The notes under the pieces are model-generated. The model saw only the letters and a list, made by a program, of their open reading frames with translations, ran no database searches and was not told the origin of the DNA. Shown in pieces: positions 4,566-62,914 of a DNA stretch of 64,000 nucleotides (position 1 is its first letter; every line of letters starts with the position of its first letter). Both the position numbers and the translations under genes were made by a program. This stretch comes from Bacteroidales bacterium (GTDB lineage: Bacteria > Bacteroidota > Bacteroidia > Bacteroidales > VadinHA17). The stretch is taken from positions 16,944-80,943 of the forward strand of contig JANTGF010000010.1 of NCBI GenBank assembly GCA_024763075.1. Reading direction: 5' to 3'.

Positions 4566-4589
4566 CATACGGTTAGTCAGAGACAATGC

Positions 4590-4745
4590 CTGAGATTTAA
4601 AATGCCTAGAATGCCTAAAATTCAAAATGCTTAGAATGCCTGGAATTCAAAATGCCTAAAATGCCTAAAATTTAAAGTGCCTAAAATGCCTAAACTGCCT
4701 AAAATTTAAAATGACTAAAATTAAAATTGTCTGAAATGTCTAACA
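4590..4745. repeat. Degenerate 9-bp-period tandem repeat (ATGCCTAAA)n
   Basis: Direct reading: aatgcctaaaatgcctaaaatttaaagtgcctaaaatgcctaaactgcctaaaat. Same family recurs near 45.0 kb, 45.4 kb, 48.3-48.5 kb and 50.4-50.6 kb. Confidence 0.8.
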
Positions 4746-4879
4746 TTTAAAATACTTAATATGAAAAATGAGTAAATGCTGTCGACTTATTTCTGTGATG
4801 TAAAAATGACTGCTCACTCCCTTATTATGAAATAATATTACGGTACTCTGCACCTCCTCATTCTCCCTTTGAGTCTTGG

Positions 4880-15179: not shown

Positions 15180-16010
15180 TGGGGTTTGCCGTTCTATTCC
15201 GACGCTGCATAGCTGTGTTCTTTCTACGGAGCATTTCACTGCGCCGGGTTTCGTATTATATAATTTAACCCCGACTTGAAAGTCGGGGCTATATTACGCC
15301 CTTACAGGGCTGGGAGAATAATTTTGCCAAATAATATACCCAGGATATCGCTCGAATCCTTTCGCGTGATACCATAAACCATGAATAATAATTATTTTAT
15401 TAAATAATCATTTCCATTTAAAATTATCAACAAGACCAGGCAAATCACGTTTAAATTCCCCACCTCGCTGAGGAGGGGTGTCATGACGTATTCTGTTATG
15501 AAGGGGAGGTCCAGCCTGTGCGCAGGCCGGTTATCCCATCCGCTGCCGCTACCGCGCGAATCATTCGCGTGGTATTGTTTTCCATATACTACACTGGATT
15601 GTCCGGAGACGAATACAGATGTTACAATTGAAAAAGTTTTTCAATCTGGCGCTGCATTTCATAATTCTTTTACCAGGCATTTCATTGCGCCGGTTTTTCG
15701 TGTTTGCTTATACAACCCCGATGAAAGTCGGGGCTAAATTAAAATGCCCTTTCAGGGCCGAAAACATCCGGTATATCGCGCGAATACTTTCGTGTGATAC
15801 GATAAACCATGAATAATAAATATTTAACTAAAGAGTTATTTCCCATAAAATTATCCACCCCCGCTACCGCGTGAATTCTTCGCGTGGTATTGTTCTACAT
15901 ACCACACGCCGGAATGTCCGGTGATGAATACAGGTGCTACAATTGAAAAAATGTAACCCCGACTTGAAAGTCGGGGCTATAATATTACGCCTTTACAGGA
16001 CTGAATGCAG
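15180..16010 (+). repeat. Composite multi-hairpin repeat, locus I (about 2.5 iterations)
   Basis: Ordered modules: gcgctgcat...cattgcgccgg, CCCCGACTTGAAAGTCGGGG (15269-15288), GCCCTTACAGGGC, CCCCACCT..AGGAGGGG, gtcatgacg.., GCCTGTGCGCAGGC, TACCGCGCGAA..TTCGCGTGGTA (from 15550 and 15865), then repeated. Confidence 0.85.
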
Positions 16011-16079
16011 CAAATTTGTTTATTATATACGTACAACTACCACCATTTTTTCACAATCTAAGCGGAGTAATTATTTTAA

Positions 16080-25049: not shown

Positions 25050-25330
25050 TGAGGTTTGTCTTTCTGTTCCGGCGCTGCATAACAATTTTCTTTTATCAGG
25101 CATTTCATTGCGCCGGACTTTCGTGTTTGATCATGTAACCCTGACTTTCACGTCAGGGCTATAATATTACGCCCTTACAGGGCTGGGAGAAGTAATTTTG
25201 CCTAATCATATACGAATAAATTCCCCTCCTTTTTTCAAGGAGGGGTGGACGTCCATGTACGGATCTTTCCTTTTTATTGTAATTATAAAATGGACGGACG
25301 GGGAGGTCCAGCCCGTGTGCAGGCCAAAAA
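25050..25330 (+). repeat. Composite multi-hairpin repeat, locus II (single iteration)
   Basis: ccggcgctgcat...cattgcgccgg; CCCTGACTTTCACGTCAGGG (25139-25158); GCCCTTACAGGGC; CCCCTCCTTTTTTCAAGGAGGGG; cggggaggtccagcccgtgtgcaggcc. Confidence 0.85.
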
Positions 25331-37392: not shown

Positions 37393-38065
37393 TTCTACCG
37401 CGCGAATCCCTTCGCGCGGTAATTTGCAAGTGTTACAACAGAAAAACATTTTCATTCCGGTGCTACATAGCCTTATTTTTCTGTCGGGCATTTCATTGCG
37501 CCGGGGTTTAGTATTGGATCATATAAACCCCGACTTGAAAGCCGGGGCTAAATTATTACACCCTTACAGGGCTGGGAGAAGAATTTTGACTAATCATATA
37601 CGTAAATTTCCCCTCCTTTTTTCAAGGAGTGGTGTCATGACGGAGTACGTCATGACGAGGAGGTCCTGCCCGTGTGCAGGCTGGTTTTGGCTGCTGCCGC
37701 GCAAATACCTTCGCGTGGTAATTTTCTATATACCACATACTGAATTGTCCAGGGACGAATGCAAGTGTTCCAATAGAAAAATTTTTTCATTCCGGCGCTA
37801 CATAGCATTGTTCTTTTTCCTGGCATTTCATTGCGCCGGGGTTATGTATTTGATTATGTAACCCCGACTTGAAAGTCGGGGCTATAATATTACGCCTTAC
37901 AGGGCTGGGAGAAGAATTTTGGCGAATCATATACGTAAAATTCCCCTCCTTTTTTCAAGGAGGGGTGTTATGACGGAGTACGTCATGACGGGGAGGTACG
38001 GCCTGGGCAGTTGCCAGTTTCTTTAGCTACCGCGCGAATCCCTTCGCGTGGTAAAGCTCAACATA
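37393..38065 (+). repeat. Composite multi-hairpin repeat, locus III, first part (two full iterations plus start of a third)
   Basis: TACCGCGCGAATCCCTTCGCGCGGTA at 37396; equivalent modules at 37695 and 38028 (spacings 299 and 333); CCCCGACTTGAAAG[T/C]CGGGG at 37528 and 37862; GTCATGACGgagtaCGTCATGAC; CCCCTCCTTTTTTCAAGGAGGGG. Confidence 0.9.
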
Positions 38066-38278
38066 GGGTTTGCTGAAAAAGTTCAGAACATGCCATATAC
38101 GAAGCTGCAAGGTAAAGCTGAGCCGTAGCAATGAAGTAGATGGTATGTTATGGGCTAACAATAGTAAAAAATGCAAGATTTTTAGTAAAAACCTATAATA
38201 AATCTGGCATTTGGAATGAAATACGCACTTTTATATAATTGATTATTGGAAGTTTAAGTGTTTTTCAGCAAACACTTC
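38066..38278. mobile_element. MITE-like element, about 213 bp, inserted inside the composite repeat
   Basis: Ends GGGTTTGCTGAAAAA and ...TTTTTCAGCAAACACTTC (inverted); flanked by ATA on both sides (38063-38065 and 38279-38281); interrupts the conserved 'gtggta...acataccacacgctggattgtcc' order seen in other copies; no ORF. Confidence 0.75.
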
Positions 38279-38330
38279 ATACCACACGCTGGATTGTCCA
38301 GGGACGAATGCAGGTGTTACAGGGATGGTC
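38279..38330 (+). repeat. Composite multi-hairpin repeat, locus III, remainder after the MITE insertion
   Basis: 'ataccacacgctggattgtccagggacgaatgcaggtgttaca', equivalent to 15899-15940 and 37731-37770. Confidence 0.85.
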
Positions 38331-48230: not shown

Positions 48231-48311
48231 AATTTATTTTCATTAAAGGAAATTTATACAGAAACATATTTTCTTCCGTTTGGTATTAAGTCATATTTAA
48301 TCTGTAATTAA

Positions 48312-48480
48312 GAAATGTCTAAAATACTTAGAATGCCTAAATTGCCTAAAATTAATACTGTAATATGTAAATCTTTTATTTTTATTTTGGAATTTTAAAT
48401 TTTAGTTCATTTTGAATTAGGAAATGCCTAAAATACTTAGAATGCCTAAAATGCCTAAAATGCCTAAAATTAATACTGTA
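48312..48480. repeat. Dimeric repeat, 109-bp period, containing ATGCCTAAA arrays
   Basis: gaaatg[t/c]ctaaaatacttagaatgcctaaa at 48312 and 48421 (offset 109). Confidence 0.85.
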
Positions 48481-48503
48481 ATTCGATCCGTCAGTTTCTG
48501 CTC

Positions 48504-48540
48504 TAATTCTAAGATTTCTCAGTCATACTTCCTTCGAAAT
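48504..48540 (-). repeat. Dispersed repeat shared with 59798-59833
   Basis: Reverse complement ATTTCGAAGGAAGTATGACTGAGAAATCTTAGAATTA; near-identical to the copy at 59798. Confidence 0.85.
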
Positions 48541-48565
48541 GAAAAAATAGTAAGGCCATAATATA

Positions 48566-50350
48566 CTAAGTTCCCGAGGATAATATCCAGTTCACCAAAC
48601 CCTTTTTCTCAATGATTTCCATCAACTTATCCGGAAGGGCAGCAAATTTATAAGCCTTCCCGTTTCTGCTTAATAAACCTTTCTTCAATACTACTTCTAC
48701 CCTATCGCCTGTCTGGTAATCGTTCACAAAATCCGGTTGAACAATCAAAACCAGACCCTGATTCACTGCAGAACGGTAAAAAATACGGTTTACAGACTTT
48801 ACGATCACTGCTTTTACCCCGGCATAAGCCAGTCCTACAGAAGGATGCTCGCGGGAACTTCCACAACCGAAATTCTCTCCTGCAATAACTACATCGCCTT
48901 CTGCCAGATTTTTCGAAAATTTCTCATCGAATCCTGCAAATAAATGAGGCAGAATGGTTTCCGGTTCCGAGCTGAGCACTTTATAGGTAAGATTGCCGGC
49001 AAACATCTGATCTGTATTCAGGTTGTCAATATCGCTGTAATTCCATATTTTTCCGGTTTTCCGGTTTTCTCCGGCAGGAATAACCACTGTAGCACCCTGT
49101 TCAATATCATACGGATATTTATCTTTATGCTTCCCGCCTCTGGGATCGGTAATTACACCGGTAATGGCCGAAATGGCAACGGTTGCCGGTGAGGCAAGAA
49201 AAACTGAAGCATTCAGATTCCCCATCCGTCCTTTAAAATTCCTGTTTGATGTGGAAATTACATTATATCCGTCTGCAGGAATTCCCTGTCCTGTTCCCAG
49301 ACAGGGTCCACAGGAAGGACTTAATACATTCGCTCCGGCTTCCAGCAATGTCTGAATGACACCCTCTTCCATGGCCTGCATGTATATCTTTTTGGAAGCT
49401 GGAGTAACCAGTAATTGGAATCCCTCTATTACCTGTTTTCCTTTTAGAATTCCGGCGGCTTCCTGCAGGTCTTCCAGCCGGCCATTGGTACAGGTACCTA
49501 TCAGACCCTGATTTAAAGGAGTGCCCTCCACATCTGACAAGGCCTTTACATTATCCACATGATGAGGAGCTGCCACCAAAGGAAACACTTCGTTAAGATC
49601 AATGGAAATCTCTTTCACATATGTGGCTCCTTCATCTGCCCATACACCTTCCGGTTTCTGTTGGCCATAAAAATCAGCCAAAACTTCATCCGGTGGGAAA
49701 ACCGCATTTTTTGCACCCATCTCCGAAGCCAGGTTTGCCAGTGTCATTCGTTGTGAAATACTCAGGGTCTTTACACCCTCCCCATGATATTCAATTGACA
49801 TGTAATTGGCACCGGCAGAACCAATCATTCCGATTATCCATAAAGAAAGGTCTTTGGCATAAACACCCACATTCAGTTTTCCGGTCAGATTGATCTTTAA
49901 AGTTTCCGGAACCCTGAACCAGGTCTCTCCTCTTTTCCAGATGCCTGCAGTTTCCGTACGGTCAATTCCTGCGGCAAAAGCATTAAAAGCACCCGCTGTA
50001 CAGGTGTGGCTGTCACTTCCAACAATCAACATTTTCGGACGTGCATGGTAAGACATGATCTGATGACAGATGCCCTTTCCAGCATCATAAAATAGCTGAA
50101 TACCTTTTTCCTTTACCAGATCGCGGATGGCCTGGTATTGTGTTGCAAGCTTTGCAGTAGTTGGAGGTGCATTATGATCGAGAACAATCAGCAGACGTTC
50201 CGGATTTTTAATCTGCTCCCCTCCCATCTTTTCAAATGTTTTATAAATGCTTGCGCTGTTATCATGACTCAAAATAATATCCGGCTGACGGAAAACAATG
50301 CTGCCTGCCGGAGCATTAAATATTTTCTCTGCGAAGGTTTTTTTATTCAT
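48566..50350 (-). CDS. Aconitase/LeuCD-superfamily hydro-lyase, large and small (swivel) domains fused
   Basis: 'LIVGSDSHTCTAGAFNAFAAG', Fe-S ligands 'GTCTNGRLED' and 'SPSCGPCLGTGQG', swivel 'VVIAGENFGCGSSREHPSVGLAYAG'. Confidence 0.92.
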   Translation of the reverse strand: MNKKTFAEKIFNAPAGSIVFRQPDIILSHDNSASIYKTFEKMGGEQIKNPERLLIVLDHNAPPTTAKLATQYQAIRDLVKEKGIQLFYDAGKGICHQIMSYHARPKMLIVGSDSHTCTAGAFNAFAAGIDRTETAGIWKRGETWFRVPETLKINLTGKLNVGVYAKDLSLWIIGMIGSAGANYMSIEYHGEGVKTLSISQRMTLANLASEMGAKNAVFPPDEVLADFYGQQKPEGVWADEGATYVKEISIDLNEVFPLVAAPHHVDNVKALSDVEGTPLNQGLIGTCTNGRLEDLQEAAGILKGKQVIEGFQLLVTPASKKIYMQAMEEGVIQTLLEAGANVLSPSCGPCLGTGQGIPADGYNVISTSNRNFKGRMGNLNASVFLASPATVAISAITGVITDPRGGKHKDKYPYDIEQGATVVIPAGENRKTGKIWNYSDIDNLNTDQMFAGNLTYKVLSSEPETILPHLFAGFDEKFSKNLAEGDVVIAGENFGCGSSREHPSVGLAYAGVKAVIVKSVNRIFYRSAVNQGLVLIVQPDFVNDYQTGDRVEVVLKKGLLSRNGKAYKFAALPDKLMEIIEKKGLVNWILSSGT

Positions 50351-50370
50351 TTGATTATGGTTAATATTAA

Positions 50371-50584
50371 ATGCCTAAAATACTTAGAATGCCTAAAATT
50401 ATAAAATTGGTACCGTAAAATAGAAAACTCTTATATTTCATTTTGGAATTTTGAATTTTAGTTCATTTTGAATTAAGAAATGCCTAAAATACTTAGAATG
50501 CCTAGAATGCCTAAAATTATAAAATTGGTACCGTAAAATAGAAAACTCTTATATTTCATTTTGGAATTTTGAATTTTAGTCATT
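50371..50584. repeat. Dimeric repeat, 109-bp period, containing ATGCCTAAA arrays (second locus)
   Basis: atgcctaaaatacttagaatgcct...ttataaaattggtaccgtaaaatagaaaactcttatatttcattttggaattttgaattttag, units starting 50371 and 50480. Confidence 0.9.
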
Positions 50585-62228: not shown

Positions 62229-62600
62229 TTAGCTCATAGCCATGATCATACCTCCAAAATAGGGCATCAGCCATATAAACCATACAACCAGACTGAAGCG
62301 ATGAAATTTACGTCTGAGTTCCTGATTATCTTTACGTATAACAGTTGTTGCCCATATGGCATGAGCCAGCATCAGCCATAGAGCGATTTGTCCGGTAAGT
62401 GTATGGGAATCCCACAAGGTAAAATGCCCTTTTGCCAGCAGGTGCATCAAAAAAGTTCCGGTCACATCAAATGAAAAACCAATCCAGAATGTAACAACAT
62501 GCCAGGGTTTCAAAAATTTGGCCAGACGTTCGGCCCATACTCCCAAAGAATAGAACAGAAGGGCCAGGGTTATGAATATGGTGGAAAAGATGAATAACAT
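62229..62600 (-). CDS. Small membrane protein of the TIGR03987/HsmA-like type
   Basis: 4-TM hydrophobic profile; 'FWIGFSFDVTGTFLMHLLAKGHFTLWDSHTLTGQIALWLMLAHAIWATTVI'. Start moved to the ATG at 62600, downstream of the tandem repeat. Confidence 0.7.
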   Translation of the reverse strand: MLFIFSTIFITLALLFYSLGVWAERLAKFLKPWHVVTFWIGFSFDVTGTFLMHLLAKGHFTLWDSHTLTGQIALWLMLAHAIWATTVIRKDNQELRRKFHRFSLVVWFIWLMPYFGGMIMAMS

Positions 62601-62700
62601 AAATACAAGATACAAGAAACAAGAAACAAGATACAAGAATCAAGAAACAAGATACAAGAATCAAGAAACAAGATACAAAAATCAAGAAATCACGAAACAG
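62601..62700. repeat. 21-bp tandem repeat (acaagatacaagaatcaagaa)n
   Basis: Direct reading of 4-5 imperfect units immediately 5' of the 62229-62600 gene. Confidence 0.85.
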
Positions 62701-62914
62701 ATGAAATGCTGATATTTGCAGATTTCCGGGACAAGATTCAAGAATCAAATAATATACTTAAATCTCTGACCAAATATAGCAATAAAATGCAAGTTTTCCT
62801 TACAAAGATAATAGTGATGGTACCAATTTGTACAGGGTGAAATTTACCATTCTGGCATTTTCATAAATTCTCCTCAAAGATTTTTTAATTTTGACATTTT
62901 GGAATTTTAAATTT

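Follow-up and report, generated by a model that had tools for sequence, protein, structure and literature searches.

A composite repeat in the genome of a Bacteroidales bacterium carries, at positions 25139-25158 of the window (the whole 64,000-nucleotide stretch of DNA that was analysed, part of contig 10 in an assembly of 4.59 Mb and 197 contigs), a hairpin whose two arms differ from those of other copies by a matched pair of base changes. Is the pairing of this hairpin, referred to here as module C, conserved, and if so, what conserves it? As described below, the stem covaries, and identical or homologous hairpins are located at the genes of Y1 transposases. The reading we prefer, to which we assign a probability of roughly 0.7, is that module C, together with the adjacent module D, would be a REP-like hairpin, one of several dispersed copies of the end, folded as single-stranded DNA, of a subclass-1.2-like Y1 (HUH) transposase element.

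Organization and genomic setting of the composite repeat

The composite repeat is represented by ~70 BLAST pieces across the genome. In the module map of the genome its order is constant, A-X-B-C-D-E-F-G, and the units, of ~330-390 bp each, are arranged in tandem. Three clusters lie in the window, all on the + strand. The first (15200-16030; modules B, C, A, G and X in order) and the second (25067-25327) are both situated between convergent ORFs, while the third (37395-38330) consists of tandem units with a spacing of ~333 bp. Among the 22 clusters flanked by genes on both sides, with simple ORFs serving as gene calls, 12 have convergent neighbours, 10 co-directional and 0 divergent; every one of these clusters is located 3' of at least one adjoining gene.

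The module C sequences and coordinates given in the earlier note are correct. In the second cluster, module B (25069-25116; CCGGCGC...GCGCCGG) is followed by the compensated form of module C, CCCTGAC-TTTCAC-GTCAGGG (CCCTGACTTTCACGTCAGGG; 25139-25158) and, 12 nt 3' of the latter, by the module D hairpin GCCCTTACAGGGC (25171-25183). The first cluster has CCCCGAC-TTGAAA-GTCGGGG (CCCCGACTTGAAAGTCGGGG) at 15269-15288 and 15957-15976, as well as a copy with a 2-nt deletion that brings the stem down to 6 bp (CCCCGATGAAAGTCGGGG; 15716-15733); its D modules are GCCCTTACAGGGC (15298-15310), GCCCTTTCAGGGC (15746-15758) and GCCTTTACAGGAC, which has one disrupted pair (15989-16001). In the third cluster, CCCCGACTTGAAAGTCGGGG is found again at 37862-37881 (CCCCGAC-TTGAAA-GTCGGGG), and the copy at 37528-37547, with module D as ACCCTTACAGGGC at 37560-37572, contains GCCGGGG. 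The change in this last copy had been described as G-U-tolerable; on the + strand it is in fact an uncompensated A.C mismatch (pair 6), and it reads as G.T on the - strand only. Module A hairpins of the same cluster are TACCGCGCGAATCCCTTCGCGCGGTA (37396-37421) and TACCGCGCGAATCCCTTCGCGTGGTA (38028-38053), the second of which has a standing G.T pair. Across the genome, pair 3 divides module A into two subtypes, C-G being replaced by T-A in a double change.

Several other repeats were seen. Short-repeat arrays resembling AATGCCTAAAATT are located at 4585-4775, 48307-48530 and 50363-50580 of the window, a direct repeat of ~80-95 nt at 48271-50580, and tandem ACAAGATACAAGAAACAAG repeats at 62591-62702. 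Module E (CCCCTCC..GGAGGGG) is also present in contigs of two other genomes, G019 and G026 (L038, L057 and L097-L100), where the composite is absent and where the module forms, in places, inverted pairs ~50 bp apart. A search for a Y1 gene in G019 found none.

Variation of the module C stem within the genome

Module C copies were gathered with a sequence-only profile of modules B-C-D that made no use of structure; a profile of module D alone is too short to find copies, and the B-C-D alignment was used instead to score it. Exact CCCCGAC-N{4,8}-GTCGGGG sites number 27 in the 4.59 Mb genome, compared to 0 for the reversed control pattern. Most of the 46 C slots have CCCCGAC/GTCGGGG, and ~6 have CCCGGGG/CCCCGGG or close forms, the type carried by all five aligned copies of the sister species (G001). 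CCCTGAC/GTCAGGG, the form with the matched change seen at 25139-25158, is real and recurrent, and fills 7 of the 46 slots.

In the 41 distinct rows of the module C alignment, 92.7% of the cells are paired, as opposed to 82.5% after shuffling, and cells changed on both sides amount to 28 vs. 7.4 (0 of 500 shuffles as high); slid alignments reach 53% paired at most. It should be noted that the CCCGGGG type is one register off the CCCCGAC type, so that misalignment accounts for the majority of the 12 cells that count as 'unpaired' at one pair. Covariation beyond shuffles is also seen in stem A (12 both-side cells vs. 4.3) and stem D (12 vs. 1.5), while stems E, G and X show no covariation beyond shuffles.

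The seven CCCTGAC copies probably stem from a single change that spread. Within the CCCYGAC type, the count of compensatory against stem-disrupting changes in this genome comes to ~1 compensated event vs. ~4 plain mismatched copies, which does not make a strong case, and consequently the genome on its own cannot settle whether pairing is conserved. The proof of conserved pairing is the wider comparison of sequences presented in the next section.

A possible alternative to stepwise compensation, which we hold only tentatively, is that separate REP types were exchanged into the slot as whole hairpins by recombination or insertion. The form of C is unlinked to the D background, CCCTGAC being found with both main D types; CCCGGGG occurs in the sister species as well as in some copies of this genome; and CCCCGAC is independently resident at Y1 genes (see below). 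Against such exchange, CCCTGACTTTCACGTCAGGG differs at only 3 sites from the inverted form of this genome, CCCCGACTTTCAAGTCGGGG, and the composition of one copy (CCCCGACTTTCACGTCAGGG, L073) is as expected for a one-arm intermediate, both of which are predicted by stepwise change. The exchange of hairpins is, in any case, partly compatible with a REP-like hairpin of a transposase.

The hairpin at Y1 transposase genes

We searched 395 genomes of the class with CCCCNNCTTGAAAGNNGGGG, in which four N are left free. Among the matches listed from outside this genome, 13 of 13 are complementary at the free letters, and four stem types are represented; the reversed control returned 0. The match at locus L177 of genome G126 is an exact 20-mer on the 5' side of a Y1 transposase gene (intact, 144 aa), at a distance of ~50 nt, and this locus (L177/L205) belongs to a distant Bacteroidetes genome of a different family. 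The orthologue of the L177 gene on contig 21 of our genome is 81% identical over 106 aa and frameshifted, with the identical hairpin (CCCCGACTTTCAAGTCGGGG) 52 nt upstream; the surrounding DNA is ~78% identical between the two genomes, and the 20-mer is unchanged. A relative in genome G044 has CCCCACC-TTGAAA-GGTGGGG-CTAA on the 3' side of the gene, and three more copies of the CCCCACC hairpin are solitary in that genome. The cognate hairpins are low-copy in G044, G018 and G008, unlike those of classical REPs.

Four Y1 genes are found in the genome, all different and none repeated. The Y---Q--HH signature takes the forms YIQRQEKHH, YIANQEEHH and YIKNQDQHH here and YIQNQETHH in L177, and the WQ (W-Q) motif of subclass 1.2 is present. 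The proteins belong to Pfam PF01797, and the nearest solved structures in the PDB are ISHp608 and its relatives. Three full-length proteins score above the cut-off of the NCBIfam IS200/IS605 model, while the scores against NCBIfam REP_Tyr_transpos, 23-36 bits, fall below its cut-off of 80. Judged by sequence, the proteins are of the Y1/IS200 type with the signature of subclass 1.2, the subclass being assigned by motif match alone. Because the contig 21 gene is frameshifted, or else misassembled, an intact cognate is absent from the evidence of the genome itself. In the sister species, an assembly that is 80% complete, the sole Y1 match is weak and 2.6-like.

A search for relatives of the L177 protein yielded 80 loci, mostly from Bacteroidota. 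The homologous 5' hairpin was examined in 8 sequences, aligned with MAFFT beside the conserved GGCTTTAGCCATTAA while ignoring pairing: 89% of its cells are paired, and its covariation is 0.375 vs. 0.140 shuffled (0 of 500 as high). For the homologous 3' hairpin, which has a CAATT tag, 14 sequences were compared: 99.1% of the cells are paired, a percentage biased upward as the set was picked after a hairpin scan, both-side cells number 21, and the covariation is 0.587 vs. 0.126 shuffled (0 of 500); slid alignments give at most 47% paired. Among 35 distinct genes of this type from relatives of the genome, a hairpin is present upstream of 21, downstream of 19 and on both sides of 14, compared to 0.6, 1.1 and 0 in the shuffled control. 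For 29 ordinary genes of the window, the respective numbers are 1, 4 and 0. Some Y1 genes have no hairpin detectable by the scan.

Furthermore, 12 of 50 Y1 genes have within 160 nt on their 3' side a twin layout, consisting of a larger hairpin, a linker of 9-15 nt that often starts with CTA, and then a small hairpin; shuffled sequences give 0. Modules C and D (25139-25183) share this layout. Separately, locus L238 has three tandem copies of TTATCCCCGACATnAATGTCGGGGCAATT with 64-nt spacing, 0-300 nt 3' of a Y1 gene, and at L094 (8150-9100; G000:C84) an intact Y1 gene with a twin hairpin on its 3' side stands among repeated CATCCCGGAGGGATAGAAT and AATGCCTGAGATATATAAG units.

Taken together, the complementary free letters in other genomes, the both-side changes in module C and the covariation of the 5' and 3' hairpins indicate that pairing is conserved, as the earlier note had suggested, and far beyond the single covarying pair on which that suggestion was based.

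Other modules and other Y1 transposases

Module A resembles hairpins that surround a Y1 gene of G044 (L165, 792-867 and 1491-1518; the gene is subclass-2.6-like): they share its unusual G.T pair and differ from it by two pairs that are compensated. The likeness is supported by eye; the nhmmer comparison of module A with Y1 flanks is not significant (E 0.11). In addition, a 33-nt hairpin, AGTCAGGGGATGACT-nnn-AGTCATCCCCTGACT, directly follows module D in some composites of the genome (copies at L062:2741, L068:10519 and 11006, L071:19199 and L082:268; in the sister species at L130/L163), and it flanks the sole, subclass-2.6-like Y1 match of the sister species. In the L082 copy, AGTCAGGGGGTGACT..AGTCACCCCCTGACT, A-T is changed to G-C, again on both sides. 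Since module A resembles hairpins at a 2.6-like gene and the 33-nt hairpin flanks another, the composite looks like a mosaic of hairpins from several Y1 transposases. When models of the modules were compared with Y1 flanks, module A alone gave a lead; the matches of modules B and X and most of those of module E were weak or due to chance, and these were set aside.

It seems fairly probable that Y1 transposases of subclass 1.2 in Bacteroidota, described as REP-less, each have their own coevolving hairpin set, and that, in this genus, the hairpins of several unrelated Y1 transposases have been joined in a multi-hairpin unit that propagates as a mosaic.

Maintenance of pairing

Y1 (HUH) transposases are a class of enzymes that read folded single-stranded DNA. 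Under the preferred reading, a Y1 transposase or a relative would recognise the hairpin in this form, and selection for recognition would maintain pairing: stem letters would change only as matched pairs, while the loop and linker would be left to drift. The hairpins would also be mobilised by the transposase. Those of this and apparently at least one other Y1 subclass would have been built, in this genus, into the ~330-bp unit, which sits in gaps 3' of genes, is duplicated in tandem and would swap modules among copies. The absence of clusters between divergent genes also counts in favour of this reading. Against it speak the frameshift of the contig 21 gene, the CCCGGGG form and weak Y1 match of the sister species, the low copy number of the cognate hairpins in G044, G018 and G008, and the Y1 genes at which the scan found no hairpin. 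RNA function or cruciform-templated correction, to which the pairing had previously been attributed, are possible causes but not the best supported ones; the hairpin sits at the ends of Y1 genes.

If the hairpins worked as RNA 3' of genes, in transcription end or mRNA protection, selection on the RNA fold would keep the pairing. The gene neighbourhood of the clusters, always 3' of one gene or more (12 of 22 convergent, 0 divergent), agrees with this, as does the G.T pair of module A, which is tolerable on the + strand only and is kept in 30 of 32 copies of the genome and in most copies of the sister species. However, module C mismatches show no strand preference, being G.U-tolerable on the + strand in some copies and on the - strand in others. 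Module C is followed by CTAAATTA, with no T run, and at gathering score no Rfam repeat family was matched, the sole match in the window being a tRNA. An RNA function also leaves unexplained why the same 20-mer and homologous hairpins lie beside Y1 genes, and we consider it unlikely.

Least probable is a purely mutational origin, in which cruciform extrusion or template switching copies one arm to the other and thereby makes matched changes in one step: it could operate alongside selection, and the loop inversion of TTGAAA to TTTCAA in two copies of the genome and the apparent one-arm intermediate CCCCGACTTTCACGTCAGGG speak for it, but the lasting G.T pair of module A indicates that mispairs are not generally erased, which, together with module C mismatches that favour neither strand, argues against pervasive correction to perfect palindromes, and covariation is missing from stems E, G and X.

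Comparison with known systems

For REPIN hairpins, changes on one side that compensate for those on the other, and stem residues that alternate yet stay complementary, have been described (PMC3116915, PMC3733652), and stem mismatches impair cleavage in the group-3 TnpA-REP systems that were tested (PMC8266576). According to Quentin et al., subclass 1.2 generally lacks the typical terminal structures of IS200, and its REP entry is 'no' (PMC6006769). Compensatory change in REPs is therefore already known; what is new is the occurrence of hairpins at a subclass published as REP-less (PMC6006769). For palindromic repeats of Bacteroidetes in particular, our literature search returned nothing specific, only general REP papers. 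A widespread, uncharacterised group of HUH transposases hereby gains candidate DNA substrates, and natural variants with compensated stems are available by the dozen. The comparison also shows how the letters of a hairpin, one that is probably read in single-stranded form, can vary while the shape is kept, and how arrays may be assembled from the REP-like parts that belong to different transposases.

The repeat resembles the REP/REPIN systems with TnpA-REP/RAYT in that short extragenic palindromes are both dispersed and grouped, and the same palindrome is found at a Y1 gene (PMC3116915, PMC3733652, PMC8266576). Unlike in REPs, which have GTAG/GT[AG]G or CGTC at the foot, most copies of module C read TTAG or ATAG in front of CCCC on the - strand, GTAG occurring in a single copy. 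With 27 exact sites and additional variants, the copy number is lower than that of classical REP families, and the protein, in contrast to REP-associated (class 2) transposases, is subclass-1.2-like and under the NCBIfam REP cut-off. With TnpA-Y1 subclass 1.2 it shares the Y---Q--HH signature, the W-Q motif, low copy number and occurrence in Bacteroidota (PMC6006769), but most of the genes here, unlike in the published description of that subclass, carry covarying hairpins (PMC6006769). A Y1 HUH transposase with subterminal hairpins is also the hallmark of IS200/IS605 (subclass 1.1; IS608, ISDra2), from which the present case differs in having no multiple near-identical copies of a whole element and in hairpins that are dispersed without the gene. 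Finally, the regularly spaced tandem mosaic arrays of extragenic palindromic units are reminiscent of the BIMEs (REP mosaics) of E. coli, whereas the modules here apparently derive from transposases of different subclasses and follow one fixed order.
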